Under the pieces are notes generated by a model. That model saw only the letters and a list, made by a program, of their open reading frames with translations, searched no databases and was not told the DNA's origin. A DNA stretch of 64,000 nt from Pseudomonas anuradhapurensis. Its GTDB lineage: Bacteria > Pseudomonadota > Gammaproteobacteria > Pseudomonadales > Pseudomonadaceae. The DNA lies in the NCBI RefSeq assembly GCF_014269225.2, contig NZ_CP077097.1, positions 750,001 to 814,000 of the forward strand, read 5' to 3'. The translations under genes and the position numbers were made by a program. Below are positions 6,425 through 20,033 of this stretch, piece after piece (position 1 is the stretch's first letter; the number at the start of each line of letters is the position of its first letter).

Positions 6425-6537
6425 GAGCGCAACGGGCCAGATGATCGTCGGTCAATGTGGCCTTTTGGTCCCAACCGGCGATACTCCTTCTATACGCAGG
6501 CGTGTTCCTGGTGGCGCGCGCCGCTGGGAGGTGTCAG

Positions 6538-7467
6538 ATGAACAAACTGTCAATCGTAGGCGCCGGCATCGTCGGCGAGGCGGCGGCGCAGATCATTGCC
6601 CGGGACGAGCTGTGCCGTGAACTGGTGCTGATGGACGTGCAAGGTGAAATGGCCAAGGGCAAGGCGCTGGACGTGTGGCAAGCTGCAGTCGAATCAGGTT
6701 CCGATACCCGCGTGCATGGCGGCGGCGACGCCGAGTTGCTGCAGGGCTCCGAGCTGGTGGTGATCACCGCAGGCGTGCCGCGCAAGCCGGGCCAGTCGCG
6801 TCAGGATGTACTCGCTACCAACCTGCCCATCCTCGACGGCATCATGGCGGACATCAAGCAGCATGCGCCGACGGCCACCGTGCTGGTAGTGTCCAACCCG
6901 GTCGATGTGCTCACCTACCGCGCCTGGAGCCTCAGCGGGCAGGGGCGCAGCAAGGTGTTCGGCCAGGCAGGGGTGCTGGATACCGCGCGAATGAAATGTT
7001 TCATCGCCGAACAGACCGGTTTCTCCGCCCGCGATATCACCGCGCTGGTGCTCGGCGGGCATGGCGACAGCATGGTGCCGCTGATGCGCTACTGCCAGAT
7101 CGGCTCGGTGCCGTTGTCGCACTTCCTGTCCAGTGAGCAGATCGAGCAGATCGTCGAGCGCACGCGCAAAGGTGGCGGCGAGATCCTTGGCTTGAAGAAG
7201 CTGGGCAGCGCCTGCGATGCGCCGGGCGTGGCCATTGCGCAGATGGTGGATGCGATCGCCAACGGGCGCAACCGCATCTTGCCGGCGGTAGCGATTCTGG
7301 AGGGCGAGTATGGGCGCAAGGATATTGCCATGGGCGTGCCTTGCGTACTGGCAGAGAAGGGGCTGGCGCGGGTGATCGAGCTGCCGCTGGATGCGCAGGA
7401 ACAGGCAATGTTCGACCAGTCGGCCGATCAGGTGGCGCGGGATATTGCCGAAATGAAAGCGCTGTGA
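6538..7467 (+). CDS. mdh: NAD-dependent malate dehydrogenase
   Basis: This 309-residue protein is in the lactate/malate dehydrogenase family. It has the Rossmann motif GAGIVGEAA at residues 7-15, the mobile-loop substrate-binding Arg region GVPRKPGQSRQD at about 79-90, and the catalytic His in GGHGDSMVP at about 173. It oxidises malate to oxaloacetate in the cytoplasm. The Arg-rich loop supports malate rather than lactate. The ATG at 6538 is preceded by GGGAGGTG; upstream in-frame codons do not belong to the conserved fold. Many pseudomonads rely on Mqo instead, so a soluble Mdh fits the P. putida group. Confidence 0.9.
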   Translation: MNKLSIVGAGIVGEAAAQIIARDELCRELVLMDVQGEMAKGKALDVWQAAVESGSDTRVHGGGDAELLQGSELVVITAGVPRKPGQSRQDVLATNLPILDGIMADIKQHAPTATVLVVSNPVDVLTYRAWSLSGQGRSKVFGQAGVLDTARMKCFIAEQTGFSARDITALVLGGHGDSMVPLMRYCQIGSVPLSHFLSSEQIEQIVERTRKGGGEILGLKKLGSACDAPGVAIAQMVDAIANGRNRILPAVAILEGEYGRKDIAMGVPCVLAEKGLARVIELPLDAQEQAMFDQSADQVARDIAEMKAL

Positions 7468-7470
7468 CTG

Positions 7471-7498
7471 TGTGGGAGCGGGCACGCCCGCTCCCACA
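7471..7498. repeat. REP hairpin (GTGGGAGCGGGC family) after mdh
   Basis: A perfect 13-bp inverted repeat with a 2-nt centre lies 3 nt after the mdh stop. It is one palindrome of the second REP family in the window and may act as the 3' end of the mdh transcript and of the convergent permease gene. Confidence 0.8.
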
Positions 7499-7524
7499 GA
7501 GCCCCTGCCTACCGAGCCTGGCCC

Positions 7525-8346
7525 TTAGCGCTGATACGCCCGGCCAAAATGCCGCTCCAGCCGCGCCTGCAACAGTTCCAGCAATATCGACAGCACCCAG
7601 TAGATCACCGCTGCCGTGGTCAGCATCTCCAGGTAGCGATAGCTCGAGCGCCCGTACGACTGCGCCAGGAACATCACCTCCCACACGCCCATTACCGAAA
7701 TCAGCGACGAATCCTTGAGCATCGAGATGAACTGGTTGGCCGTCGGTGGAATGATCACGCGCATGGCCTGGGGCAGGACGATGTGCCAGAAGATCTGCGG
7801 CGTGCGCATGCCCAGCGCCAGCGCCGCTTCACGCTGCCCGCGGGCGACGCCGAGGATGCCGGCGCGGAAGATCTCGCTCAGGTAGGCCCCGTAGTTCAGC
7901 GACAGGGCGATGATGCCGGCACTGATGGCGCCCGGTACCAGGCCCAGCTGTGGCAGCCCCAGGTAGATCAGCAGGATCTGGATCAGCAGCGGCGTGCCGC
8001 GGAAGAACGAGGTGTAGAAGCTGGCGATGCCCACCAGCACCGCACTGTTCGACAAGCGCGCCAACGCGGCGGCAAAGCCGAACAGCACCGACACCACCAT
8101 CGAACACAGGCACAGGAACAGGGTCAGCGCCGCGCCCTGCAGAAAACCGTTGGGCCCGAGCTTGAAGCCGGCGAGGTTCGGGAACTTCTCCAGGATGATC
8201 GAAAACTTCAGGTCGAAGCTGAGGAAAAACGCGACGAACAGGCCGAACAGCGCCAGCCAGGTCAGCAGTAACCGGGTGCGAAAGCCGAACAGGCCGGCAC
8301 CCGTGGCTTTTGCCACGGGCTTGAGGGACGGGGGGAAGGTGCTCAT
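7525..8346 (-). CDS. Amino-acid ABC transporter permease (HisM/GlnP type)
   Basis: This 273-residue inner-membrane permease has a hydrophobic N-terminal anchor, then the polar amino-acid permease fold with TSFFRGTPLLIQILLIYLGLPQ at about 128-149 in two pieces and the coupling EAA-like loop EAALALGMRTPQIFWHIVLPQA near 180-200. Its ATG at 8346 overlaps the stop of the binding-protein gene by 4 nt (ATGA); an upstream in-frame start inside that gene is rejected. It must pair with an ATPase, but none is adjacent. The substrate is probably a polar amino acid. Confidence 0.85.
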   Translation of the reverse strand: MSTFPPSLKPVAKATGAGLFGFRTRLLLTWLALFGLFVAFFLSFDLKFSIILEKFPNLAGFKLGPNGFLQGAALTLFLCLCSMVVSVLFGFAAALARLSNSAVLVGIASFYTSFFRGTPLLIQILLIYLGLPQLGLVPGAISAGIIALSLNYGAYLSEIFRAGILGVARGQREAALALGMRTPQIFWHIVLPQAMRVIIPPTANQFISMLKDSSLISVMGVWEVMFLAQSYGRSSYRYLEMLTTAAVIYWVLSILLELLQARLERHFGRAYQR

Positions 8347-9164
8347 TTGCTGATATCGGCGCCGATCCATTTCTGCGACAGCTTGGCCAGGGTGCCGTCA
8401 GCCTTCAGCTCGGCAAACACCTGGCGCACCTTGGCATCCCACTCGGGGTCGCCTTTCTCGATGGCCACCGAGTTCGGTTCCTCGTACAGCGGGGCGCCGG
8501 CCAGCTTGAAGCGCTTGTCCTGTTCCAGGCGCGGCTGCGCGGTCACCAGGTTGGTGAGGATGGCATCCAGGCGCACGCCAGCGCCCAGGCCCAGGTCCTG
8601 GAAGGCGACGTTGTCGGTGTCGTACGGCGCGATCTGCACGAAGTCGAAGGGGTAGTCGATCTTCTGCTCTTCCTTGCCTTCGATCACCAGGTTCTTGTTC
8701 AGGTAGCTCTCGTAGCTCGAGGCACTGGTCAGACCGACCTTGCGGCCGTCCAGGTCTTTCGCCCCATGGATGCGCTCATCCTTGGCGTTGACCACGATCA
8801 CCGCAGGCGAGGCGTAGTACTCCACCGGGAAGTCGAACACCTCGGCGCGGGCCTTGCTCGGGGTCATCGAGCAGATGCAGATGTCATAGCGGCCACTCCA
8901 GCGGCCGGCGGCGATCACATCCCAAGATGGGGTTTCCAGACGCAGCTTGACGCCCAGCTTGTCTGCCACGGCCTTGGCCACATCCACGTCGAAACCGGCC
9001 AGTTGGTTCTGCTCGTTGACGAAGGAAAACGGCGGGTAGCTTTCCATCAGCACGTTGACCAGTTCCTTGCGCGATTCAACCCGCTCCAGCGTGGCGCCCG
9101 CAAAGGCCTGGGAAGCAGTCGCGAGCAGCACGAGGCCCGCACCGAGCACAGTAGAAAATCGCAT
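8343..9164 (-). CDS. Amino-acid ABC transporter substrate-binding protein
   Basis: This 273-residue periplasmic protein has a signal peptide (about 1-22, ending SQAFA) and a family 3 solute-binding fold: VLMESYPPFSFVNEQNQLAGFDVDVA at the start of the mature domain (in two parts), then the YDICICSMT hinge segment and the KVGLTSASSYESYL linker. The start at 9164 is favoured because AGG lies 7 nt before it; an alternative ATG lies two codons upstream at 9170. It delivers substrate to the permease encoded immediately downstream. The gene is divergent from the S-methyltransferase gene, so their promoters share 9165-9267. Confidence 0.85.
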   Translation of the reverse strand: MRFSTVLGAGLVLLATASQAFAGATLERVESRKELVNVLMESYPPFSFVNEQNQLAGFDVDVAKAVADKLGVKLRLETPSWDVIAAGRWSGRYDICICSMTPSKARAEVFDFPVEYYASPAVIVVNAKDERIHGAKDLDGRKVGLTSASSYESYLNKNLVIEGKEEQKIDYPFDFVQIAPYDTDNVAFQDLGLGAGVRLDAILTNLVTAQPRLEQDKRFKLAGAPLYEEPNSVAIEKGDPEWDAKVRQVFAELKADGTLAKLSQKWIGADISK

Positions 9165-9231
9165 GCACATACCTGAAATGTTGGCCAATTGGGAGAAAGC
9201 GTATTTAATAGTTATAAATGAAACTCACATA

Positions 9232-9246
9232 ATGAATTTAATTCAT
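9232..9246. promoter_or_regulatory. ATGAATT-T-AATTCAT palindrome in divergent promoter region
   Basis: This perfect 7-bp inverted repeat around a single T lies in an AT-rich stretch between the divergent binding-protein and S-methyltransferase genes. It is a candidate operator for a LysR or Lrp-type regulator controlling both. An 8-bp TTGGCCAA palindrome at 9181-9188 lies in the same region. Confidence 0.45.
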
Positions 9247-9267
9247 AAGAACCTGCAGAGTAGTTAT

Positions 9268-10167
9268 ATGAAACAGCGAGCGATGGTGATTCTCGACGGT
9301 GGCATGGGCCGTGAACTGCAGCGCAGTGGGGCGCCGTTTCGCCAGCCCGAATGGTCGGCCCTGGCGCTGAGCGAGGCGCCCGAAGCGGTGGTCGGCGTAC
9401 ACGCCGCATTTATCGCCGCCGGTGCCCAAGTCATCACCAGCAACAGTTATGCGGTGGTGCCTTTCCATATTGGCGAGGAGCGTTTTGCCAAGGAAGGGCG
9501 CCAGCTGGCCAATATCGCAGGGCAGCTGGCGCGGCACGCCGCCGATGTCGCTGCGCACCCGGTCAAGGTCGCGGGCTCGCTGCCGCCGCTGTTCGGCTCC
9601 TACCGCCCGGACCTGTTCCAGCCCGAGCGCGTCGAGGAAGTGCTGTCGCCGCTGTTGCAGGGCCTGGCTCCGCACGTCGACCTGTGGCTGGCAGAAACCC
9701 AGAGCTCGGTGGCCGAAGTACGGGCCATCCATGCCCACCTGCCGGAAGACGGCAGGCCGTTCTGGGTGTCGTTCACCCTGCAGGACGAAGAAGTGGACGA
9801 CACCCCGCGCCTGCGTTCCGGCGAGCCGGTAGCCGATGCCATCGAAGCCGTGGTCGGCCTGGGTGTGGCGGCCGTGCTGTTCAACTGCAGCCAGCCCGAG
9901 GTCATCGGTGCTGCGGTGGATGTGGCGCGCTCGGTGATCGAGCGACACAACGCTGACGTTGCCATCGGTGCCTATGCCAACGCCTTCCCGCCGCAGCCGA
10001 AGGAAGCCACCGCCAATGATGGCCTGGATGAGCTGCGCGAAGACCTCGATCCGCCGGGTTACCTGGCATGGGCCGCTGACTGGCGCAAGCGGGGTGCCAG
10101 CATGATCGGTGGCTGCTGTGGCATCGGCCCGGAGCACATTGCCGAGCTGAAGCGTAATCTGGCGTGA
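9268..10167 (+). CDS. Homocysteine S-methyltransferase
   Basis: This 299-residue zinc-dependent methyltransferase moves a methyl group, usually from S-methylmethionine, to homocysteine to give methionine. It has the family's N-terminal LDGGMGRELQRSG, the first zinc Cys in VLFNCSQPEVI at about 200, and the paired Cys in GGCCGIGPEHI near the C-terminus. ATGs exist at 9232, 9268 and 9283; 9268 gives the family's usual length, though the Shine-Dalgarno signal (GCAGAG) is weak. It resembles MmuM. The amino-acid permease gene two positions downstream is a possible uptake partner. Confidence 0.85.
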   Translation: MKQRAMVILDGGMGRELQRSGAPFRQPEWSALALSEAPEAVVGVHAAFIAAGAQVITSNSYAVVPFHIGEERFAKEGRQLANIAGQLARHAADVAAHPVKVAGSLPPLFGSYRPDLFQPERVEEVLSPLLQGLAPHVDLWLAETQSSVAEVRAIHAHLPEDGRPFWVSFTLQDEEVDDTPRLRSGEPVADAIEAVVGLGVAAVLFNCSQPEVIGAAVDVARSVIERHNADVAIGAYANAFPPQPKEATANDGLDELREDLDPPGYLAWAADWRKRGASMIGGCCGIGPEHIAELKRNLA

Positions 10168-10175
10168 AGCCATGA

Positions 10176-10210
10176 GGGGGCCGGGCGGCTGCCACACTCG
10201 ACCGGCCCCC
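10176..10210 (+). terminator. GC-rich hairpin after the S-methyltransferase gene
   Basis: The arms GGGGGCCGG and CCGGCCCCC enclose 17 nt, 8 nt after the stop codon. There is no U-tract (an A-tract follows), so this is a stable 3' end structure rather than a textbook intrinsic terminator. Confidence 0.45.
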
Positions 10211-10336
10211 AGCCATTAAAAAAAACGCCACTCAGACCCGGATTCCATCGTTTTTCAGTCCCCCGCCATGTCCCTATAGTCCGCTGAAAGCCGATGCTCG
10301 ATCGGCATACACAACTCAGCCGTGCGGGAACCGGAT

Positions 10337-11608
10337 ATGAACAACAACGAAAAATTCGAGGGCAATGCAGCGGCCGGTGTCGGTACGCGCGTGGTGTGGG
10401 GCGGCGAGCAGGTGCAGCACCCGTACAACGCCACCCAGACCCCGATCGTGGTCAGCGCCGCCTACGGCTACAACGATATCGACGCCTGGTATGACGTGGC
10501 CCAGGGCAAACTGCCGGGCTACATCTACAGCCGCATGAGCAACCCGACGGTCGCCACCCTGGAAGCCAAGCTGTGCGAGCTGGAGCAGGCCGAGTCGGCC
10601 GTGGCTTTCAGCAGTGGCATGGCGGCCATCAGCGCGGTGCTGCATACCTTCCTGTGCACCGGCAAGCGCGTGGTATCGACCCGCGACAGCTACGGTGGCA
10701 CCAACAAGATCTTCGAAGAGTTCCTGCCGCGCATGGGCGTGCAGGTGTGTCTGTGCGACACCCTCGACACCGAGGCGCTGGAGCGCGAAATCGCCGCCGG
10801 CTGCGACCTGCTGTATCTGGAAACCCCGACCAACCCGACCTTGAAGGTACTGGATATCCAGCGCCTGTGTGCGGCTGCCCGGCGGGTGGGTGCCGTGGTG
10901 GTGGCCGACAACACCTTCGCCACCCCGCTGAATCAGAACCCGCTGGCCCTGGGCGTGGACGTGGTGGTGCACAGCGCCACCAAGTTCCTGTCCGGGCATG
11001 GTGACGTGCTGGGCGGTGTGGTCTGCGGTGCCGAGCCGCTGATGGCGCAGGTGCGTCACTACCGTGAAATCAACGGTGCGGCGCTGGACCCGTTTTCCGC
11101 CTACCTGATCATCCGCGGGATCAAGACCCTGGCTTTGCGCCTGCGTCAGCAACAGGCCAGCGCCCAGGCCCTGGCCCAGTACCTGAGCAGCGAACCGCTG
11201 GTCGAAGCGGTCAACTACCCAGGGTTGCCCGAGCACCCGGGCCATGCGATCGCCAAGGCGCAGATGCGCGGCTTCGGTGCCATTGTCAGCTTCGTGCTCA
11301 AGGGCGGCATGCCCACCGTGGCACAGCTGCTGCCGCGCCTGAAATACGCCCACCGGGCAGGCAACCTGGGCGCGGTGGAAACCATCTATGGGCCGGCGCG
11401 GACCACCAGCCATGTGGAAAACACCCTCGAAGAACGCCTGGCCCTGGGTATTTCCGAAGGGCTGGTGCGCATCTCGGTGGGTATCGAAGACACCGAGGAC
11501 CTGCTGGCAGACCTGGCACAGGCGTGTGCAGCGGTCCGCCAGGAGTTGGCCGCAGCAAAGGACTTGCACGGTGACGCGTACGCCGGCCTGGCCGCAGTAC
11601 AGGCCTGA
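10337..11608 (+). CDS. PLP-dependent Cys/Met metabolism enzyme (gamma-lyase / gamma-synthase family)
   Basis: This 423-residue protein has the fold of cystathionine gamma-synthase and methionine gamma-lyase. It shows [13 protein letters not shown] at about 57-69, the cofactor-binding SSGMAAISA, and the Schiff-base lysine Lys216 in [11 protein letters not shown]. The N-terminus carries an extra [19 protein letters not shown] segment typical of a large subgroup annotated as cystathionine gamma-synthase. Its setting with homoserine dehydrogenase, aldehyde dehydrogenase and RidA suggests it cleaves a gamma-substituted amino acid to homoserine or 2-oxobutyrate. A canavanine gamma-lyase role is possible. 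The exact substrate cannot be told from sequence. Confidence 0.8.
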
Positions 11609-11751
11609 GGCAGGCGCGTGGCACCCGTTCCTTGCGGTGGGTGCCAGTTCATGAAGTCGAACAAAAACAATATGCAAGGCAATTCGCTTCGCTCTGCCAA
11701 GACGAGGTCGTTGCAACGTCCTTGCCCGCCAACTTTCATGAGAAAACCACA

Positions 11752-13191
11752 ATGTCCCTGCAGACAACTACAACGACAAATGCTTCTGCGCATGGCTTCA
11801 AGCAGGATATGCAAACCCGCCATATCGTCATGCTGGCGCTGGGCGGTGTCATCGGTACCGGCCTGTTCCTGACATCGGGCTACACGGTCAACCAGGCCGG
11901 GCCCCTGGGTGCGGTCATCGCCTATATCCTCGGCGCGATCATGGTCTACCTGGTGATGATGTGCCTGGGCGAACTGGCCGTGCACATGCCCGAGGTCGGC
12001 TCGTTCAGCAGTTACGCCACGCGCTACATCGGGCCGGGTACCGGCTACATGGTGGCGTGGATGTACTGGCTGACCTGGACCGTGGCCATCGGCTCGGAAT
12101 TCACCGCCGCCGGCATCCTCATGGTGCGCTGGTTCCCCGATACGCCGGTGTGGCTATGGAGTGCCCTGTTCGGCCTGGCAGTGTTCATCAGCAATATCAT
12201 TTCGGTGCGGTCGTTTGCCGAGACCGAGTTCTGGCTGTCACTGATCAAGGTGCTGGCGGTGGTGGCCTTCCTGGTAGTGGGCGGTGGCGCGATCCTCGGC
12301 GTGTTCGAGATTACCCAGGCGCACAGTGTCGGGCTGGGCAACTTCACCCGTGAAGGGCTGTTCCCCACCGGCTTCTGGTCGATTGCCATGACCCTGCTGG
12401 CGGTGGCCTTCGCCTTCTCCGGCACCGAGCTGATCGGCATTGCCGCCGGCGAAACCCGCGACCCGGAAAAGAACGTGCCCAAGGCCATCCGCACCACGGT
12501 GCTGCGCCTGGCGCTGTTCTTCGTCGGCACCATTTTTGTCCTCGCCACCTTGTTGCCGCGCGAACAGGCCGGCGTGGTGGAAAGCCCGTTCGTGATGGCC
12601 TTTGAAATGATCGGCATCCCCTACGCGGCAGACATCATGAACTTCGTCATCATCACTGCGCTGCTGTCCGCCGCCAACTCCGGGCTCTATGCCGCCGCGC
12701 GCATGCTCTGGACCCTCAGCGACCAAGGCAACATGCCACGCCGCTATGCCGCGCTGTCCCGCCGTGGCACGCCGTTCAATGCCATCGTCCTGAGCATGGC
12801 CGGCGGCATGGCGTCGCTGCTCAGCAGCGTGTTCGCGCCGGACACCATCTACCTGGCGCTGGTGTCGATTTCCGGGCTGGCAGTGGTGGTGGTGTGGATC
12901 AGCATCGCGGTCAGCCAGATGGCCTTCCGTCGTCATTACCTGGCCCATGGCGGCAAGCTGGAAGACATGAAGTTCCGCGTGCGCGGCTACCCGTTCGTGC
13001 CGCTGGCGGCGATCTTCTGCTGCGTGCTGGCCTGCGTGGGCATCGCCTTCGACCCGGCCCAGCGCGTGGCCCTGTACTTCGGCCTGCCGTTCATCGCCTG
13101 GTGCTATCTGGCGTACTGGCTGACTTGCAAGTACCGCGCGCAGCGTCCGTTGCCGCTGCAAACCGTGACGTCAGGTTCCGAGCCCGCCTGA
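11752..13191 (+). CDS. APC-family amino-acid permease (LysP/MmuP-like)
   Basis: This 479-residue permease has 12 predicted membrane helices. The first carries the substrate-binding [13 protein letters not shown] motif at about 35-47, and the [19 protein letters not shown] loop follows helix 6. It belongs to the AAT group of amino acid/proton symporters, which includes LysP, MmuP and aromatic permeases. The start at 11752 gives a normal-length cytoplasmic N-terminus ([17 protein letters not shown]); upstream in-frame codons look non-coding. Position suggests it imports the substrate of the gamma-lyase and S-methyltransferase, for example S-methylmethionine or another basic amino acid. Confidence 0.85.
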
Positions 13192-13237
13192 GCAGAGTGA
13201 TACTAGGCCACCGGAACGTTGCCACGAGAAACCGCCG

Positions 13238-14122
13238 ATGACCCAGAAAACCCTGCCCCCCTTGAACTGGCTGAGAGCCTTCGAAGTGTCGGCGCGTTAC
13301 CTGAACTTCACCCATGCCGCGGAAGAGCTGCACCTCACCCAGGGGGCCGTGAGCCAGCAGATTCGCCACCTGGAGAGCCAGTTGGGGGTGGCGCTGTTCA
13401 AGCGCCTGCCCCGGGGGCTGGGCTTGACCGAAGAAGGGCAGTCCTACCTGCCGGTGGTGCAGGACGCGATCAGCCGCCTGGCAGTGGGCACCAACGAGAT
13501 CTTCGGGCAGCGCCAGCGGCGGCCGCTGAAGGTGCGCGGCAGCCTGTCGTTCCTGCACTTCTGGCTGGCCCCCCGGCTGGCCGATTTCCGCCGTGCCCAC
13601 CCACAGGTGGATATCCGCTACATCAGCAACCTGTGGGTCAAGGAACTGGATGCCGAGGACGACCTGGAAATCCGCTGGGGCAGCGGCCAGTGGCCGGGGG
13701 TGGAGGCGCAGCGGCTGACCCGCGACCTGCTGGTGCCGGTCTGCTCGCCTGCGCTGATCGCAGGCTCGCCGTTACGCGAGCCGCGCGACCTGGCCGGTGT
13801 GCCGTTGCTGCATGTGCTGGGTTACGAGGAGGGCTGGGGCTACTGGCTGGAGCGGGTTGGCGCCGATCAGGTCGATTCCTCCAGCGGCCTGCAGTTCGAC
13901 ACCCTGGTGTCGACCTTGCGCATGGCGGAGTTGGGGCTTGGGGTGGCGCTGGCGCGTTCGTCGCTGGTCGAGGACTTGCTGCAGGAAGGGCGGCTGGTCG
14001 CGCCTTTTACCCAACGCATCGAGGCCAGCGAATCGTTCTACCTGGTACGCGGCCTGGGTGAGGCGTTGTCCAGCGATGCCCAGGCCTTCAGCCACTGGTT
14101 GGTGGCGATGGCTCACCGTTAA
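13238..14122 (+). CDS. LysR-family regulator (GcvA-like)
   Basis: This 294-residue protein has an N-terminal winged helix-turn-helix (LNWLRAFEVSARYLNFTHAA then LTQGAVSQQIRHLE, about 9-55). A GcvA-type effector domain follows, including VSTLRMAELGLGVAL near residue 235. It lies inside the amino-acid locus on the same strand, 46 nt after the permease and 22 nt before the threonine-synthase gene. It is therefore the likely local activator, with an amino acid or pathway intermediate as effector. Confidence 0.88.
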   Translation: MTQKTLPPLNWLRAFEVSARYLNFTHAAEELHLTQGAVSQQIRHLESQLGVALFKRLPRGLGLTEEGQSYLPVVQDAISRLAVGTNEIFGQRQRRPLKVRGSLSFLHFWLAPRLADFRRAHPQVDIRYISNLWVKELDAEDDLEIRWGSGQWPGVEAQRLTRDLLVPVCSPALIAGSPLREPRDLAGVPLLHVLGYEEGWGYWLERVGADQVDSSSGLQFDTLVSTLRMAELGLGVALARSSLVEDLLQEGRLVAPFTQRIEASESFYLVRGLGEALSSDAQAFSHWLVAMAHR

Positions 14123-14144
14123 TCAATACATACCTGGAGCACCG

Positions 14145-15533
14145 ATGCAGTACACATCCACGCGTGGCAACGAGATACGGGTCGATTTCCGCACGGCGCT
14201 GCTTTCCGGCCTGGCCGACGATGGCGGGCTGTACGTGCCGACTGCGGTGCCAACCTTCAGCCAGCAGGAAATCGCCAGCTGGTCCTGGCTGCCGTTCGAT
14301 GAACTGGCCTGGCGGGTGATGGCGCCGTTTGTCGGCGATACCCTCGACGAGCCGACCCTCAGGGCGCTGGTCAGCGACAGCTACCGTGGCTTCAGGCACC
14401 GTGGCATCGCGCCGTTGCAGCAGATTGGCCATAACGAATGGATCCTGCAGCTGTTTCACGGGCCGACCCGCTCCTCCAAGGACTTTGCCGCGCAGTTGCA
14501 GGCGCGGCTAATCCGCCATTTCCTCGGCGCCGATTGCGAGCGGGTGATGCTGGTCGGTGCCAGCAACGGCGACACCGCGGTGGCGGCCATCGACGCCTTG
14601 CGCCATTGCCCGACGGCACGCCTGCTGGCGCTGTACCCCAACGCCGGGACGCCACCCGACCGGGCCGCAGTGATGCGCAGTGCCGCGGGCGAAAGCGTCA
14701 GCTGCGTGGCCGTGGCTGGCAGCTTCGATGACTGCCAGTCGCTGGTGTCGGCGCTGCTGCGCGCATGGCCGTGCCCGGAGCTGATTCCGGTCAGCTTCAA
14801 TTCGACCAACTGGGTCGGCGTGCTGGCGCAGATCGTGTTCTATTTTCATGCGGCGCTGCAGCTGGGCGGGGGTATCCGGCCGGTCGGTTTCAGCATTCCC
14901 ACGGCCAGTTTTGCCGAGATCTACGCAGGCTTCATCGCCCAGAAGATGGGCCTGCCGATCAACCAGATCATTGTCTCCACCAACCGTAACGATGCCTTGC
15001 ACCGGTTCATCCACTGCAACCGCTACAGCCGTGGCTCAACCAGCCAGACCTTGTCACCGGTCATGGACTTCTCGCTGTTCTCCAACCTGGAGCGCTTCGT
15101 CTGGGAGCTGTATGAGCGCGACGGCGCGGCGACCAGGGCGTTGATGGAGCACTTCGAGGATTGCGGTGAACTGAGCATCGGTAACCGCCAGTGGCTGCAT
15201 GCGCGCATGCTGTTCGACTCGTATGCCGTGGACGACGCGCTGATCCGCGAGGAAATCGTCACGCTGTTCCAGGAGACCGGCACGGCAGTAGACCCGCATG
15301 CGGCAACCGGGGCGTTCGCCGGGCGCCTGCACCGGCGCAATATCGGCGCGCCGATCGTCACGCTGGGGCAGTTCGCCCCGGAAAAGTCCGCCGCGCTGCT
15401 GGCGGAACTGGGGGCCTGGCACGGCGAGGTGCCAGCCAACGTCGCTGGCACCGCAGACAGTGGGCCGCTGCTGGCACCCGAGGACCTGGCGGGGGTTCAT
15501 GAACTGTTGGCGCAGTTGCAGGCACGGCGATGA
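14145..15533 (+). CDS. Threonine-synthase-like PLP enzyme
   Basis: This 462-residue fold II PLP enzyme matches threonine synthase. It opens with MQYTSTRG and LLSGLADDGGLYVP, has the cofactor lysine Lys112 in FHGPTRSSKDFA, and the GASNGDTAVAAIDA phosphate loop near 138-151. Canonical ThrC has FHGPT-x-x-FKD; here serine precedes the lysine, so the active site differs slightly. It would convert O-phosphohomoserine to threonine, but this locus has no homoserine kinase. Its placement with lyase and catabolic dehydrogenases suggests a paralogue acting on a related gamma-substituted amino acid. The stop overlaps the next gene by ATGA. The start has CTGGAG upstream. Confidence 0.8.
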   Translation: MQYTSTRGNEIRVDFRTALLSGLADDGGLYVPTAVPTFSQQEIASWSWLPFDELAWRVMAPFVGDTLDEPTLRALVSDSYRGFRHRGIAPLQQIGHNEWILQLFHGPTRSSKDFAAQLQARLIRHFLGADCERVMLVGASNGDTAVAAIDALRHCPTARLLALYPNAGTPPDRAAVMRSAAGESVSCVAVAGSFDDCQSLVSALLRAWPCPELIPVSFNSTNWVGVLAQIVFYFHAALQLGGGIRPVGFSIPTASFAEIYAGFIAQKMGLPINQIIVSTNRNDALHRFIHCNRYSRGSTSQTLSPVMDFSLFSNLERFVWELYERDGAATRALMEHFEDCGELSIGNRQWLHARMLFDSYAVDDALIREEIVTLFQETGTAVDPHAATGAFAGRLHRRNIGAPIVTLGQFAPEKSAALLAELGAWHGEVPANVAGTADSGPLLAPEDLAGVHELLAQLQARR

Positions 15534-15967
15534 AGCGCATCCTCGACCCCCTGGACGAGCGCATTCTCGCCGAGCTCACCGCCAATGCGCGCATTGCCCA
15601 TGCCGAGTTGGGGCTGAAAGTGAACCTGTCGCGCAATGCGGTTCGCCAGCGCATCGAACGCCTGGAGCGGGACGGCGCCATCCAGGGCTACACCTTGCGC
15701 ATTGGCGAGGGGCGACGGCCGACCTCGTTGATCAACGCGGTGATCTTCGTCTACCGCTACGACCGCATGCGCGGTGAAGCGGTGCTCGATGCCCTGCGCC
15801 AGATCCCCGAGGTGATCCAGTGCGAGGTACTCAGCGGCGAATTCGACCTGCTGCTACGTGTCGAAGCCTCCAGCCCGGAGCGGGTGCATCATGTGTGGAA
15901 GGAAATTGCCGCCATGCCCGGGGTCGAGAACACGGTGACGTCGTTCGTCCTGGCCGCGGTGATCTGA
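15530..15967 (+). CDS. Lrp/AsnC-family regulator
   Basis: This 145-residue feast/famine regulator has an N-terminal AsnC helix-turn-helix (DERILAELTANARIAHAELG and LKVNLSRNAVRQRIERLE, about 8-45). A C-terminal RAM ligand-binding domain follows with the VLSGEFDLLLRVEA strand near 105. It starts inside the stop codon of the threonine-synthase-like gene, so the two are coupled. It probably senses an amino acid and controls the hom-aldehyde dehydrogenase-ridA genes that follow after a 206-nt gap. Confidence 0.9.
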   Translation: MKRILDPLDERILAELTANARIAHAELGLKVNLSRNAVRQRIERLERDGAIQGYTLRIGEGRRPTSLINAVIFVYRYDRMRGEAVLDALRQIPEVIQCEVLSGEFDLLLRVEASSPERVHHVWKEIAAMPGVENTVTSFVLAAVI

Positions 15968-15999
15968 ACCGCCCCGTTGCCCCCCAACCCTCGATACCA

Positions 16000-16033
16000 C
16001 AACGCCGCCCGGGCTCGCGCCCTGGCGGCGTTG
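16000..16033. terminator. Strong hairpin after the Lrp/AsnC gene
   Basis: CAACGCCGCC pairs with GGCGGCGTTG and an inner GGGC/GCCC stem extends it. It lies 33 nt after the stop codon. No T-tract follows, so it may be a Rho-independent terminator of weak type or an RNA-stabilising 3' end. It separates the upstream amino-acid genes from hom. Confidence 0.5.
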
Positions 16034-16075
16034 TGCATTCCTGGGCCGCCCAGCTGTGGTTAGGGCACTGGCCAG

Positions 16076-16085
16076 ATTGGCCAAT
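16076..16085. promoter_or_regulatory. ATTGGCCAAT palindrome upstream of hom
   Basis: A perfect 10-bp palindrome lies in an AT-rich 90-bp stretch before hom, followed by TTGCCATATTCAA and a TGCCA-N8-TGGCA repeat at about 16100-16117. The TTGGCCAA core recurs at 9181-9188 by the first promoter of the locus, so both may be sites for the local Lrp or LysR regulator. Confidence 0.4.
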
Positions 16086-16173
16086 AAATACAGCGGATTG
16101 CCATATTCAACTGGCATTGCCCGGCTCATAGGCTTGTCCTCATCGACCCATCGCCTGGAAAGGACAGCAAACC

Positions 16174-17217
16174 ATGACCGAATACAAGATCGCACTCGTT
16201 GGCTTTGGCGGCGTGAACCGTGCCCTGGCCCAACTGATCGCCAAACGCAACGCGCGCTGGCAGCAAGAACTGGGCTTTGCCCTGAAGATCGTCGGCGTCA
16301 CCGACCTGTTCCTCGGCTCGGTGATCGACCGCGATGGCCTGGATGCAGCCAGGCTGGCCGCCTTGCCCGCTGAGAAGGGCGCCCTGGCGCAGTTCCCTCA
16401 GGGTTCGGCCGAGGCATTCAACGAGGCGGTGATCAAGCAGTCCGGCGCCGACATCATCGCCGAAGCCACCTTTACCAACCCCAAGGATGGTGAGCCGGCA
16501 GCTACCTTCTGCCGCTGGGCACTGGAAGCGGGCAAGCACGTGGTCACCACCAACAAGGGGCCGATCGCCTTGCATGCCCAGGCGCTGAAAACCCTGGCCA
16601 AGGCCAACGGCGTGTCGTTCGAATACGAAGGCGCAGTGATGAGCGGTACACCCGTACTGCGCATGGCCCGGCAGACCTTGGCCGGCGCAGGCCTGGTCGG
16701 CTTCGAGGGCATCCTCAACGGTACTTCGAACTACGTACTGACGCGCATGGAGCAAGGGCTTGGCTTTGCCGATGCAGTGGCGCAGGCACAAGCGCTTGGC
16801 TACGCCGAGGCCGACCCGACGGCCGATGTGGAAGGGCATGACGTGCGCCTGAAAGTGGTCATCCTTGCCAACGAGCTGCTCGGTGCCTGCCTGCAGGTGA
16901 GCGATGTCACCTGCAGCGGTATCAGTGGCATCGACAGCGCGGCGATCCAGCAGGCGCAGGCAGCGGGCGAGCGTTGGAAGCTGATCGGCAGCGCCAGCCG
17001 GCAGGCCGATGGTTCGGTGCGCGCCCGTGTCGAAGCGCGCCTGTTGCCGGGTAACCACCCCCTGGCCGGTATCACCGGCGCAACCAACGCGGTGGCGTTC
17101 GACACCGAGTTGCTGGGCGCGGTGACCGTGTCCGGCCCGGGTGCGGGGCGTGTCGAAACGGCCTTTGCCCTGCTGTCGGATATCGTCGCCATCCACACCG
17201 CTGGCCGTTCGGCCTGA
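16174..17217 (+). CDS. Homoserine dehydrogenase without ACT domain
   Basis: This 347-residue enzyme has the NAD(P)-binding motif GFGGVNRAL at 10-18 and the VTTNKGPIALH segment at about 125-135. The catalytic region ADPTADVEGHDVRLKVVI is near 210-227 and contains the conserved Asp and Lys. The usual biosynthetic enzyme of this genus is about 430 residues with a C-terminal ACT domain for threonine feedback; here that domain is absent. Lack of feedback control and a downstream aldehyde dehydrogenase suggest a catabolic direction, homoserine to aspartate semialdehyde. The gene is 12 nt from the aldehyde dehydrogenase gene. Confidence 0.85.
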   Translation: MTEYKIALVGFGGVNRALAQLIAKRNARWQQELGFALKIVGVTDLFLGSVIDRDGLDAARLAALPAEKGALAQFPQGSAEAFNEAVIKQSGADIIAEATFTNPKDGEPAATFCRWALEAGKHVVTTNKGPIALHAQALKTLAKANGVSFEYEGAVMSGTPVLRMARQTLAGAGLVGFEGILNGTSNYVLTRMEQGLGFADAVAQAQALGYAEADPTADVEGHDVRLKVVILANELLGACLQVSDVTCSGISGIDSAAIQQAQAAGERWKLIGSASRQADGSVRARVEARLLPGNHPLAGITGATNAVAFDTELLGAVTVSGPGAGRVETAFALLSDIVAIHTAGRSA

Positions 17218-17229
17218 GGAGCTACTTTC

Positions 17230-18648
17230 ATGAGCCTGACTTCCGTGTCCCGGGTAGCCTTCCAGCAACCCGCCCTGATCGATGTGTACAGCCCCTACGA
17301 CGGCAGCCTGGTCGGCAGCGTCGCCAACCTCACAGCCGATGCGGTGCCGGGCCTGCTGGCGCGTGCTCGCCAAGGGGTACGCGAAAGTGCCGCGCTGCCC
17401 CGTCACCGTCGCGCCAGCATTCTTGAACAGGCCGCCCGCCTCATCGAACGCGATGCTGCCGATTTTGCCGGGCTGATTGTCGATGAAGCGGGCAAGACCC
17501 TGCGCCAGGCCGAAAAGGAGGTAAAACGCTGCATCAACACGCTCAAGCTGTCTGCCGAGGAAGCGCGGCGCAACGCCGGTGAAGTGGTGCCGTTCGATGC
17601 CTATGAAGGCTCCGAGTCGCGCCAGGGCTGGTTCACCCGCGAGCCGCTGGGGCTGATCCTGGCCATCACCCCGTACAACGACCCGCTCAATCTGGTGGCA
17701 CACAAGCTGGGCCCGGCCATTGCTGGCGGCAATGCGGTCGTTCTCAAACCCTCGGAGCTGGCCCCGTTATCGGCGCTCAAGCTGGTGCAGTACCTCACCG
17801 ATGCCGGGCTGCCTGAAACCGTTGTCAGCGTTGCCACCGGCGGCGCCGAGCTGGGCAAGGCGCTGGTGGCCGTGCGTGATGTGCGCATGGTTTCGTTTAC
17901 CGGCGGCTTCGCCACGGGCGAGCAGATTGCCCAGGGCGCAGGCCTGAAAAAGCTCGCCATGGACCTGGGCGGCAACGCCCCGGTGCTGGTGCTCAAGGAC
18001 TGCGACCTCGAAGCCACTGTCGAATCGTGCGTGTCCGGCGCGTTCTGGGCCGCTGGACAGAACTGCATCGGCACCCAGCGTATCCTGGTCGACGCCTCGA
18101 TCTACGAAGCATTTCGCCAGCGCTTCGTCGCCCTGACCCAGGCCATGGTGCTGGGAGACCCGGGCCTGCGCGAAACCGACATGGGGCCGATGATCAGCGA
18201 AGCCGCTGCACGGCACATCGAAGAGCGTGTCCAGCAGGCCCTGCAGGGCGGCGCCCGGCTGCTCTGTGGCCACAAGCGCCAGGGCGCCAACTACGCGCCG
18301 ACGGTGCTGGAAGGTGTCGACCACAGCAGCCGGCTGTGGCGTGAAGAGGTGTTCGCCCCGGTGGTGATGCTGGCGCCTTTCGAGGACATCGAGCAGGCCG
18401 TCGCCTTGGCCAATGCCCCTGAGTACAGTTTGCATGCCGGGGTGTTTACCCGCGACTTGTCCTTGGCGCTGAGCCTGGCGAAGCGCATCGAGGCAGGCGG
18501 CGTGATGATCAACGACTCGTCCGACTACCGCTTCGACGCCATGCCATTCGGTGGTTCCAAGTATGGAAGCCTGGGCCGCGAGGGGGTGCGGTTCGCCTAC
18601 GAGGACATGACCCAGCCCAAGGTCGTGTGCATCAACCAGATGGGCTGA
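17230..18648 (+). CDS. Aldehyde dehydrogenase, probably aspartate-semialdehyde-oxidising
   Basis: This 472-residue ALDH-superfamily enzyme has the catalytic Cys279 in GQNCIGTQ and the NAD-binding [12 protein letters not shown] loop. [18 protein letters not shown] lines the active site. The usual general-base Glu of the ELGG motif is replaced by Asp245 (MDLGGNAP). It belongs to the group containing lactaldehyde, GapN-like and phosphonoacetaldehyde dehydrogenases. Encoded between homoserine dehydrogenase and RidA, it could oxidise aspartate semialdehyde to aspartate and so complete a homoserine degradation route. The fold is certain; the substrate is inferred from context. Confidence 0.82.
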
Positions 18649-18659
18649 GAGGGAAGCTT

Positions 18660-19013
18660 ATGATCGAGCGATACGGGGTTGGCCAGCGGATGTCGTTGGC
18701 GGTCAGCTACAGGGGCCTGTTCGAAACCGCTGGCGTGGTCGCCGACGACCTGCAGCTGGACGTGCAGGGGCAGTTGCGCCAGGCGCTGAATACGATCGAC
18801 GGGCTCATGGCTGAGGCCAGGGTGACCAAGGAGCAGTTGACCCGGGTCCAGCTGTGGATCGCCGACTACCGCCACTTCGACCTGGTGAACGAGGTATATG
18901 ACGCCTGGTTGCAGGGCTGTGCCAAACCGGCACGGGCCTGCGTCGGTGCCGACCTGGGGGAAGGCTACCTGGTCGAGGTGCAGGTGTTTGCCGTGTGTAG
19001 CGAGCGCCCATGA
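18660..19013 (+). CDS. RidA-family enamine/imine deaminase
   Basis: This 117-residue protein has the YjgF/RidA fold with the substrate-binding arginine Arg92 in KPARACVGAD and Glu106 in VEVQVFA. RidA proteins hydrolyse reactive enamines and imines released by PLP enzymes, such as 2-aminoacrylate or 2-aminocrotonate. A gamma-lyase or threonine-synthase-like enzyme in the same locus would produce exactly such intermediates. The ATG at 18660 follows GAGAGGGAAGC, 11 nt after the aldehyde dehydrogenase stop, so it is the last gene of the hom operon. Confidence 0.88.
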   Translation: MIERYGVGQRMSLAVSYRGLFETAGVVADDLQLDVQGQLRQALNTIDGLMAEARVTKEQLTRVQLWIADYRHFDLVNEVYDAWLQGCAKPARACVGADLGEGYLVEVQVFAVCSERP

Positions 19014-19037
19014 CCGGCGGTGGCATATGCCCGCGGG

Positions 19038-20033
19038 TCAGCGCACCAGCCGTGGTACCACCCGTACGTAGACGAGCTCGCTCACCAGCTCGACCAATGT
19101 CTGGGTAATCACGGCTGCTGCCGCCAACCCGCGCACCTCGTCCGGCAGCGCCAGCGCCAGCGGCAGCACTACCAGCGAGTTGCGCGTGGCGGCGCTGAAG
19201 GTCACCGCGCGTGCTTCGCTGGCCGGCAGGCGCAACAGGCGCGCCGCGAGCCTGCCGAGCAGCGGTGCCGCAAGCATGAAGCCCAGGTATACCGGGATCA
19301 CCGGCAGTAACTGCTCGAAGTCACCCTGCACCTTGGTGATCTGCGAGGCGATCACCACCAGCAGTACCAAAGCCATCGCCGGTACCGGCAGCCATGCCCA
19401 GGCGCTGTTCCACGTTGCGACCCTGCGTGAGCGACGGGCGCCGGCGCTGGTGAGTACAGCCAGGGCCAGCGGCAGCACGATCAGCAGCACGAAGGCTTCC
19501 ACGAACGGGGTGAGCGCGAGCGGCACGTTGTTACCCAGCATCAGCGCCAGGTACAGCGGCAACAGCGCCAGTTGCGCCAGCAGCAGCACAGGTGTGGCGG
19601 CCAGGGTCAGGCGCGCATCGCCTTTGCCGATATGGGTGAACACCACCACGTAGTCGATGCACGGGGTCAGCAGCACCAGCAGCGCACCGACGAGGAGTGC
19701 CGGCTGGTCGCCCAGCCCGCGGGTGATGGCCCAGACCAGCAATGGCACAAGAATGAAGTTGGCCAGCAGCAAGGCCGCCATGAAACGGCGGTTACCCAGG
19801 CCTTGGCGCAGGTCGAGGAAGGGAATCTGCAGGAACATCGCGTACATCAGCACGGCGATGGCGGGCGTGATCAGGGCTTGCAACAGGCGTGCGGTATCGC
19901 TGGCCAGCAGGCCGAAGGCGACGGCGGCGAATACGGCGGCGAAATAGATCGGGATCTGCCGGGTTTCGAGTTGCTCTCTGGTCAAGGTGCGGCCTGTGTC
20001 TGCTGGCTGAAAGGCACACAGGGTAATACGCAC
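19038..20033 (-). CDS. BASS/ACR3-type transporter (arsenite or organic anion)
   Basis: This polytopic protein of about 315-331 residues has ten hydrophobic helices in the bile acid:sodium symporter superfamily fold. The motifs LLTPCIDYVVVFTHIGKGD at about 142-160 and AATRNSLVVLPLALALP near 281-297 match proteins annotated as arsenic-resistance ACR3 relatives. The longest reading starts with GTG at 20033; a TTG at 19985 (reading MTREQLETRQ) would give a more typical N-terminus. No arsR or arsC is nearby, so arsenite is only one possible substrate. It is convergent with ridA. Confidence 0.72.
   Translation of the reverse strand: MRITLCAFQPADTGRTLTREQLETRQIPIYFAAVFAAVAFGLLASDTARLLQALITPAIAVLMYAMFLQIPFLDLRQGLGNRRFMAALLLANFILVPLLVWAITRGLGDQPALLVGALLVLLTPCIDYVVVFTHIGKGDARLTLAATPVLLLAQLALLPLYLALMLGNNVPLALTPFVEAFVLLIVLPLALAVLTSAGARRSRRVATWNSAWAWLPVPAMALVLLVVIASQITKVQGDFEQLLPVIPVYLGFMLAAPLLGRLAARLLRLPASEARAVTFSAATRNSLVVLPLALALPDEVRGLAAAAVITQTLVELVSELVYVRVVPRLVR

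Follow-up and report, generated by a model that had tools for sequence, protein, structure and literature searches.

A run of eight plus-strand genes in Pseudomonas anuradhapurensis places a pyridoxal phosphate (PLP)-dependent lyase beside enzymes of homoserine breakdown, which raises the question of what amino acid the lyase acts on. The window analyzed here is a 64,000-nucleotide stretch, positions 750001–814000 of the 5.39 Mb single-contig genome, and its proteins were assigned to families by NCBIfam and Pfam scans, with curated cut-offs for NCBIfam. The scans recovered every gene family named in the original prediction, at the coordinates given there, and all lie on the plus strand. Our analysis suggests that these genes form a mobile catabolic cassette in which a homoserine-forming lyase would open a route to aspartate, with L-2,4-diaminobutyrate as the first-choice substrate, a reading to which we assign a probability of about 0.55.

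Gene content and proposed catabolic route

The lyase (10340–11608), a presumed homoserine-forming γ-lyase, carries PF01053 and belongs to the family NF006097 (PRK08249), with a score of 733.7 bits against a cut-off of 600; its nearest named relatives come from the P. putida group and other Pseudomonas, with identities of 94–96%. It is followed on the same strand by an amino-acid permease (11752–13191), a GcvA-like LysR-type regulator (13238–14122), a threonine-synthase-like protein with Thr_synth_N and PALP domains (14145–15533), an Lrp/AsnC regulator whose gene overlaps the preceding one (15530–15967), a short homoserine dehydrogenase (16174–17217; NF004912, 475.7 against 373), an aldehyde dehydrogenase (17230–18648), and a RidA-family protein (18660–19013; PF01042, 59.1 bits). 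The homoserine dehydrogenase consists of two Pfam domains with no further C-terminal domain, in agreement with the ACT-less enzyme described originally. The other copy in the genome is longer (450 residues) and adjoins a second threonine synthase at 1193–1194 kb, so the cassette copies are extra ones.

The proposed route draws on the general chemistry of PLP enzymes and RidA proteins. From gene content and family membership we infer that the permease would import an α-amino acid with a leaving group on its γ carbon, and that the lyase would remove this group and add water, giving homoserine. Aspartate semialdehyde would then arise from homoserine through the short homoserine dehydrogenase and be oxidized to aspartate by the aldehyde dehydrogenase, and RidA would hydrolyze stray enamine or imine by-products.

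Conservation and mobility of the cassette

The cassette was compared with the best 80 of 228 confirmed loci of the Pseudomonas/Marinomonas type, all from other genomes, using scripted gene predictions rather than annotation and up to 10 kb of flank per locus (less at contig ends). In 73 of the 80 loci, the lyase, permease, LysR, threonine-synthase-like, and Lrp genes form an unbroken block, with a gap of −10 to 19 bases between the last two. The homoserine dehydrogenase follows this five-gene block in 68 of the 73, at a distance of 4.85 kb in L020; among the five blocks without it, four end at a contig edge and the fifth is L049. Both dehydrogenases are present in 67/80 loci, while RidA was recognized in only 12. 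LysR exceeds 60% identity in all 80 loci (79 by gene clustering). The remaining seven loci, from Marinomonas or Oceanospirillales, carry the lyase and LysR, accompanied in six by an ATP-binding cassette (ABC) transporter.

Comparison with the relative G081 (locus L217) revealed an empty site, in which the flanking genes of the window occur in the same order without the cassette. Window positions 6457–10163 match L217 4428–8183 (86%) on the left and 19035–19998 match 8201–9170 (83%) on the right, with 17 bases between both flanks in L217; the insert is thus approximately 8.87 kb long (window ~10164–19034) and holds all eight genes. The left neighbors fall into 53 gene clusters across 71 loci and the right neighbors into 51 clusters across 63 loci, and the lyase was found in 16 of 119 sampled Pseudomonas genomes. 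The cassette moves horizontally between Pseudomonas genomes. Chance clustering or a local artifact was ruled out by the 80 loci together with the empty site. On the right, family scans and locus comparison place an SBF-family transporter gene (19038–20033, minus strand) outside the cassette. L024 and L028 show the same locus twice, near both ends of one P. frederiksbergensis contig and with equal neighbor clusters, which is probably assembly redundancy; in L070 (2457–3900), the permease appears as two separate tblastn pieces and may be broken.

Ectoine-linked relatives and the choice of substrate

In a tree of 36 sequences, for which the program flags long branches to other paralogues, all 19 PRK08249 members form one clade (support 100/99), and 13 lyases linked to CtdA, a protein associated with canavanine operons, form another (100/100). 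The window lyase and its relatives from a Priestia plasmid, a Klebsiella plasmid, and genome G753 all exceed the PRK08249 cut-off. In the tree, these ectoine-linked relatives lie outside the Pseudomonas-type group, with support for the last step (90/89) short of the program's own mark.

The link to ectoine comprises three neighborhoods, namely one of five Priestia and one of 28 Klebsiella/Pluralibacter records (among 60 of 1360 records), plus G753. On the Priestia plasmid, a cluster of ectoine/hydroxyectoine type comprises eutB, pdxS, an M24 gene closest to doeA, a cyclodeaminase, PRK08249, an M20 peptidase, and homoserine and aldehyde dehydrogenases, and its lyase and two dehydrogenases are 59%, 44%, and 50% identical to those of the window, respectively. 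The Klebsiella plasmid holds ehu genes, doeA, doeB, and PRK08249 together, and in G753, PRK08249, a doeA-type gene, and doeB (483.5, cut-off 402.7) occupy abutting frames. Wider lyase searches with strict E-values, the own genome counted, gave 2 of 229 for the class, 5 of 293 for the order, and 3 of 398 for the phylum. The position of PRK08249 relatives beside ectoine-breakdown genes points to 2,4-diaminobutyrate, which PMC7192451 places between DoeB and aspartate semialdehyde in ectoine breakdown.

No class III transaminase is listed in the annotated stretches adjoining the Priestia locus, and no doeD match was found in that locus. Other doeA loci were sampled from 20 of 369 genomes including our own; 18 of the 19 others were fetched (G1298 was excluded), and several stretches were cut by contig ends. 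A doeD-like gene was not seen in 12 of these 18 loci and matched at only 27% in a thirteenth, so the lack of one in Priestia and Klebsiella carries no diagnostic weight. The originally predicted order, from a γ-lyase through homoserine and aspartate semialdehyde to aspartate, fits the gene families and their conserved linkage and gains from the same dehydrogenase pair beside the Priestia lyase; the canavanine substrate attached to it is not supported. L-2,4-Diaminobutyrate, with ammonia as the leaving group, is our first choice, canavanine and methionine being unlikely.

Several observations weigh against this choice. Among the 80 Pseudomonas/Marinomonas loci, the fetched flanks showed no doeA, doeB, or eutB, and the one doeD-like match (35%) and five eutC-like matches (28–31%) were all weak; PRK08249 is likewise in none of the fetched stretches of the 18 other doeA loci. 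The TIGR02993 cut-off of 613 is not reached by the doeA-type protein of Priestia (530.9) or by that of G753 (548.6). Pseudomonas-type and ectoine-linked lyases differ at position 62, which is Met in the former and Asn in the latter, and at position 339. The homoserine module is absent from the fetched stretches of the seven Marinomonas/Oceanospirillales loci, and no homoserine dehydrogenase was found in the 5.6 kb after Lrp at L049. Finally, the host has an ectoine/hydroxyectoine cluster of its own past the window end, approximately 49–61 kb downstream of the cassette (3581–15660 of L173, which covers 814001–834000 of the genome), consisting of ehu transport genes, a MocR regulator, eutB, eutC, doeA, doeB, an aldehyde dehydrogenase, and a class III aminotransferase. 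NCBIfam scans covered EhuB, DoeA, this aldehyde dehydrogenase, and this aminotransferase, and the other names follow from similarity and order. This class III aminotransferase gives diaminobutyrate another route in the host.

Genome G587 carries PRK08249 (L168 9797–11062) and doeA (L182) on different contigs, with no ectoine genes next to the lyase in the fetched stretch. In search listings of open-licence papers, we found no link of PRK08249 to diaminobutyrate, S-methylmethionine, or ectoine. A more specific proposal is that PRK08249 is a previously undescribed 2,4-diaminobutyrate γ-lyase, exchanging ammonia for water to give homoserine as an alternative to the DoeD transaminase, and that it heads a mobile Pseudomonas cassette in which a ligand-sensing former enzyme of the threonine-synthase type acts with Lrp on a conserved DNA element (element B, below). 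We regard this full version as possible and tentative, with the odds against all its parts holding together.

The threonine-synthase-like protein and conserved upstream elements

The threonine-synthase-like protein was compared across 76 window-type sequences (from 73 of the 80 loci and three more), with the other threonine synthase of the genome as the reference. The PLP lysine is kept in all 76. The glycine-rich loop TGNFG is changed to (A/T)AS(F/S)A, and SGDTG to NGDT(G/A) with one NGET and one NGHT, in 76/76; both loops are what we take to be cofactor-site loops of threonine synthase. The window protein, scanned as the longer frame 13962–15530, scores 156.2 in the threonine synthase test TIGR00260, below the cut-off of 167.1. 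Its AlphaFold2 model (pLDDT 83.9) has the threonine synthase fold, with 4f4f as the best PDB match (TM 0.83), and the gene is under purifying selection, with dN/dS of 0.06–0.35 in one close and two distant pairs, the synonymous sites of the latter being near saturation. The protein is probably not a threonine synthase and has probably been re-purposed as a sensor or partner of Lrp, and the invariant lysine leaves room for an altered reaction.

Two conserved elements, each defined by an 8-base anchor and a majority consensus, lie on the plus strand. Element A (10213–10280) precedes the lyase with the consensus CCATTAAAAAAA.CGCCCCTTAGGCCC.GATAACATCGTTTCTC...CTATAGTG. Its anchor CATTAAAA is present in 77/80 loci, Marinomonas included, and is not in L038, L056, or L057; its first 23 bases match once in the window and never in 100 shuffles. 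The element ends in a TATAGT −10-like box, a −35/−10-like pair lies at 10252–10280 (two such pairs were found, 1.3 expected), and the element is presumed to be a LysR-controlled promoter. It tracks LysR (80/80 loci), which is retained where Lrp is missing and also stands together with the lyase in Marinomonas. Element B (16082–16116), a presumed Lrp site with the consensus AATACAGCAAATTGCCATATTCAACTGCC, precedes the homoserine dehydrogenase; its anchor AATANAGC is found in 66 of 68 loci (not in L041 or L047), and the element likewise has a single match in the window, against none in 100 shuffles. The two elements look like putative operators for LysR and Lrp. We infer that LysR may act at element A to drive the lyase and permease, and that Lrp may act at element B to control the homoserine module; the threonine-synthase-like protein would likely assist Lrp as a partner that is non-catalytic or has been re-purposed.

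Alternative substrates and reactions

A close rival and our second choice, rather improbable in itself, is that the lyase is an S-methylmethionine γ-lyase and the cassette splits S-methylmethionine into dimethyl sulfide and homoserine. The top NCBIfam match of the permease is the S-methylmethionine permease family NF008484, at 638 bits and 250 above the next family (388), but below the cut-off of 716. The Met at position 62 of the lyase, in place of the Asn of the ectoine-linked relatives, also favors S-methylmethionine. A homocysteine S-methyltransferase family protein (9268–10167, plus strand; PF02574) adjoins the cassette; it scores 123.1 against the MmuM cut-off of 215. Such an MmuM-family gene stands near the lyase in the putida group (6/80 loci) and, divergently, in one Oceanospirillales genome, but in only these 7 of the 80 loci. 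The latter case, L088 (8820–14983, a metagenome-assembled genome), carries a methyltransferase (58% identical) and the lyase in divergent orientation, a second adjacency not easily explained by descent.

The original prediction counted the methyltransferase as part of the locus. Family scans and locus comparison instead assign it to a divergent unit (7525–10167) with an ABC permease (7525–8370) and a substrate-binding protein (8343–9188), both on the minus strand and outside the cassette, which begins after the methyltransferase. The methyltransferase is present in 60 of 119 sampled Pseudomonas genomes; the divergent ABC pair accompanies it in 18 of 20 loci examined, two of these 18 (L215 and L216) also carry the cassette, and the unit is cassette-free in 16 of the 20 fetched loci. 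As the unit is common without the cassette, the methyltransferase is a neighbor rather than a part, and it was dropped as a working part after these 20 loci were compared, despite the recurring adjacency in L088. In L052 (18382–21200), the ABC pair of this unit (72–74% identity) lies directly behind the cassette aldehyde dehydrogenase, which again suits S-methylmethionine. Cleavage of S-methylmethionine would leave the ectoine links of the relatives unexplained; the permease match and the recurring methyltransferase are the reasons for retaining it as a near rival.

It is unlikely that the lyase is a deaminating α,γ-eliminase that forms 2-oxobutyrate in the manner of methionine γ-lyase, with the homoserine genes serving free homoserine. 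Methionine γ-lyases are the closest relatives of known structure and share the family and PLP residues, and RidA would suit enamine products. PMC11568061 gives YGC and KD as methionine γ-lyase markers. The active-site comparison called for at the outset revealed that Cys116, Lys240, and Asp241 of methionine γ-lyase are replaced by Gly, Arg, and Glu in 85/85 sequences (81 of the Pseudomonas/Marinomonas type and four others), and methionine as the substrate was set aside on these residues. The window lyase also scores 389.4 in the methionine γ-lyase family, below its cut-off of 549.7, and the genome has a separate methionine γ-lyase (L001; 805.8 against 666).

It is very unlikely that the lyase is an ordinary cystathionine γ-synthase or sulfhydrylase of sulfur assimilation, as its NCBI name "cystathionine gamma-synthase family protein" would suggest: among the 25 best of 54 matched families it passes the PRK08249 cut-off only, falling below those of the other 24, cystathionine γ-synthase and sulfhydrylase models included, it is tied to homoserine breakdown, it was found in only 16/119 Pseudomonas genomes, and the genome has a separate MetZ (L002).

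Comparison with known systems

Ectoine and hydroxyectoine catabolism (doeA, doeB, doeD, and doeC) is related to the cassette through its doeA/doeB-type genes, which adjoin PRK08249 relatives in three lineages and once stand with homoserine and aldehyde dehydrogenases. It differs in that its genes are not in the cassette and the host's own ectoine cluster lies elsewhere. In homoserine use by Rhizobium leguminosarum, PMC10228743 proposes a homoserine dehydrogenase for the step from homoserine to aspartate semialdehyde, as in the cassette, and a transaminase there makes diaminobutyrate from the semialdehyde; the main text of that paper never uses the word "lyase".

The third system is the canavanine operon. 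In Pseudomonas canavaninivorans, according to PMC10018355, its CtdA, a B3/4 protein, is encoded directly before the operon; in R. leguminosarum the gene also lies upstream. That the cassette is a canavanine γ-lyase operon, the substrate first proposed for it, is the least credible reading: the threonine-synthase-like, Lrp, and dehydrogenase genes are common to both, but no standalone B3/4 gene was found in the genome, where the sole match is an 804-residue frame the size of PheT, the fetched flanks of the 80 loci yielded no B3/4 gene either, the window lyase lies outside the clade of the 13 CtdA-linked lyases at 34–37% identity, and two genomes (G079 and G112) hold both systems on different contigs. 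Canavanine was set aside after standalone Pseudomonas B3/4 genes had been located and their neighborhoods compared. This survey covered 398 Pseudomonas genomes, of which 64 with at least two matches were re-searched; these were hand-picked, G076 was excluded, and 40 neighborhoods were examined.

Fifteen of the 40 neighborhoods carry the threonine-synthase-like protein (38–61%), Lrp, and the aldehyde dehydrogenase (68–71%); the homoserine dehydrogenase (67–68%) was found in 13 of these 15, and a lyase in 13. The order of the shared module is the same in 11 of the 40, and in four further loci the homoserine dehydrogenase was not found (L138 and L153) or the order differs (L131 and L147). LysR and a permease stand next to the lyase in the cassette, whereas most CtdA loci show ABC genes there. 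The CtdA-linked threonine-synthase-like proteins have another cofactor-site change: in 13 of 15, the glycine-rich loop is kept (12 TGNFG and one AANFG) and Gln replaces the PLP lysine, while the other two are of the window type. One such protein without the PLP lysine (L129 11791–13197) passes the threonine synthase cut-off, at 174.6 against 167.1, so proteins of this kind are likely misnamed in databases. L131 and L147 are CtdA operons with the window-type pair of threonine-synthase-like protein and Lrp plus another Lrp. Before this pair, an element-B-like site scores 18.1 bits in L147 and −0.1 in L131 (the sites used score 47 or more), and scores are below −10 in the other 13 CtdA loci, which ties the element weakly to the pair.

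The comparison tells apart two look-alike operons, both of which could be taken for canavanine or cystathionine genes, and proposes a testable role for PRK08249, a family whose name is uninformative. It suggests an unrecognized branch of ectoine and diaminobutyrate breakdown through homoserine, and a threonine-synthase-like protein whose cofactor site appears to have been partly lost along two different paths, with its tie to an Lrp regulator kept. Judged from the sequences, what is new is an operon in which the homoserine module is joined to a lyase different from that of the known canavanine operon.

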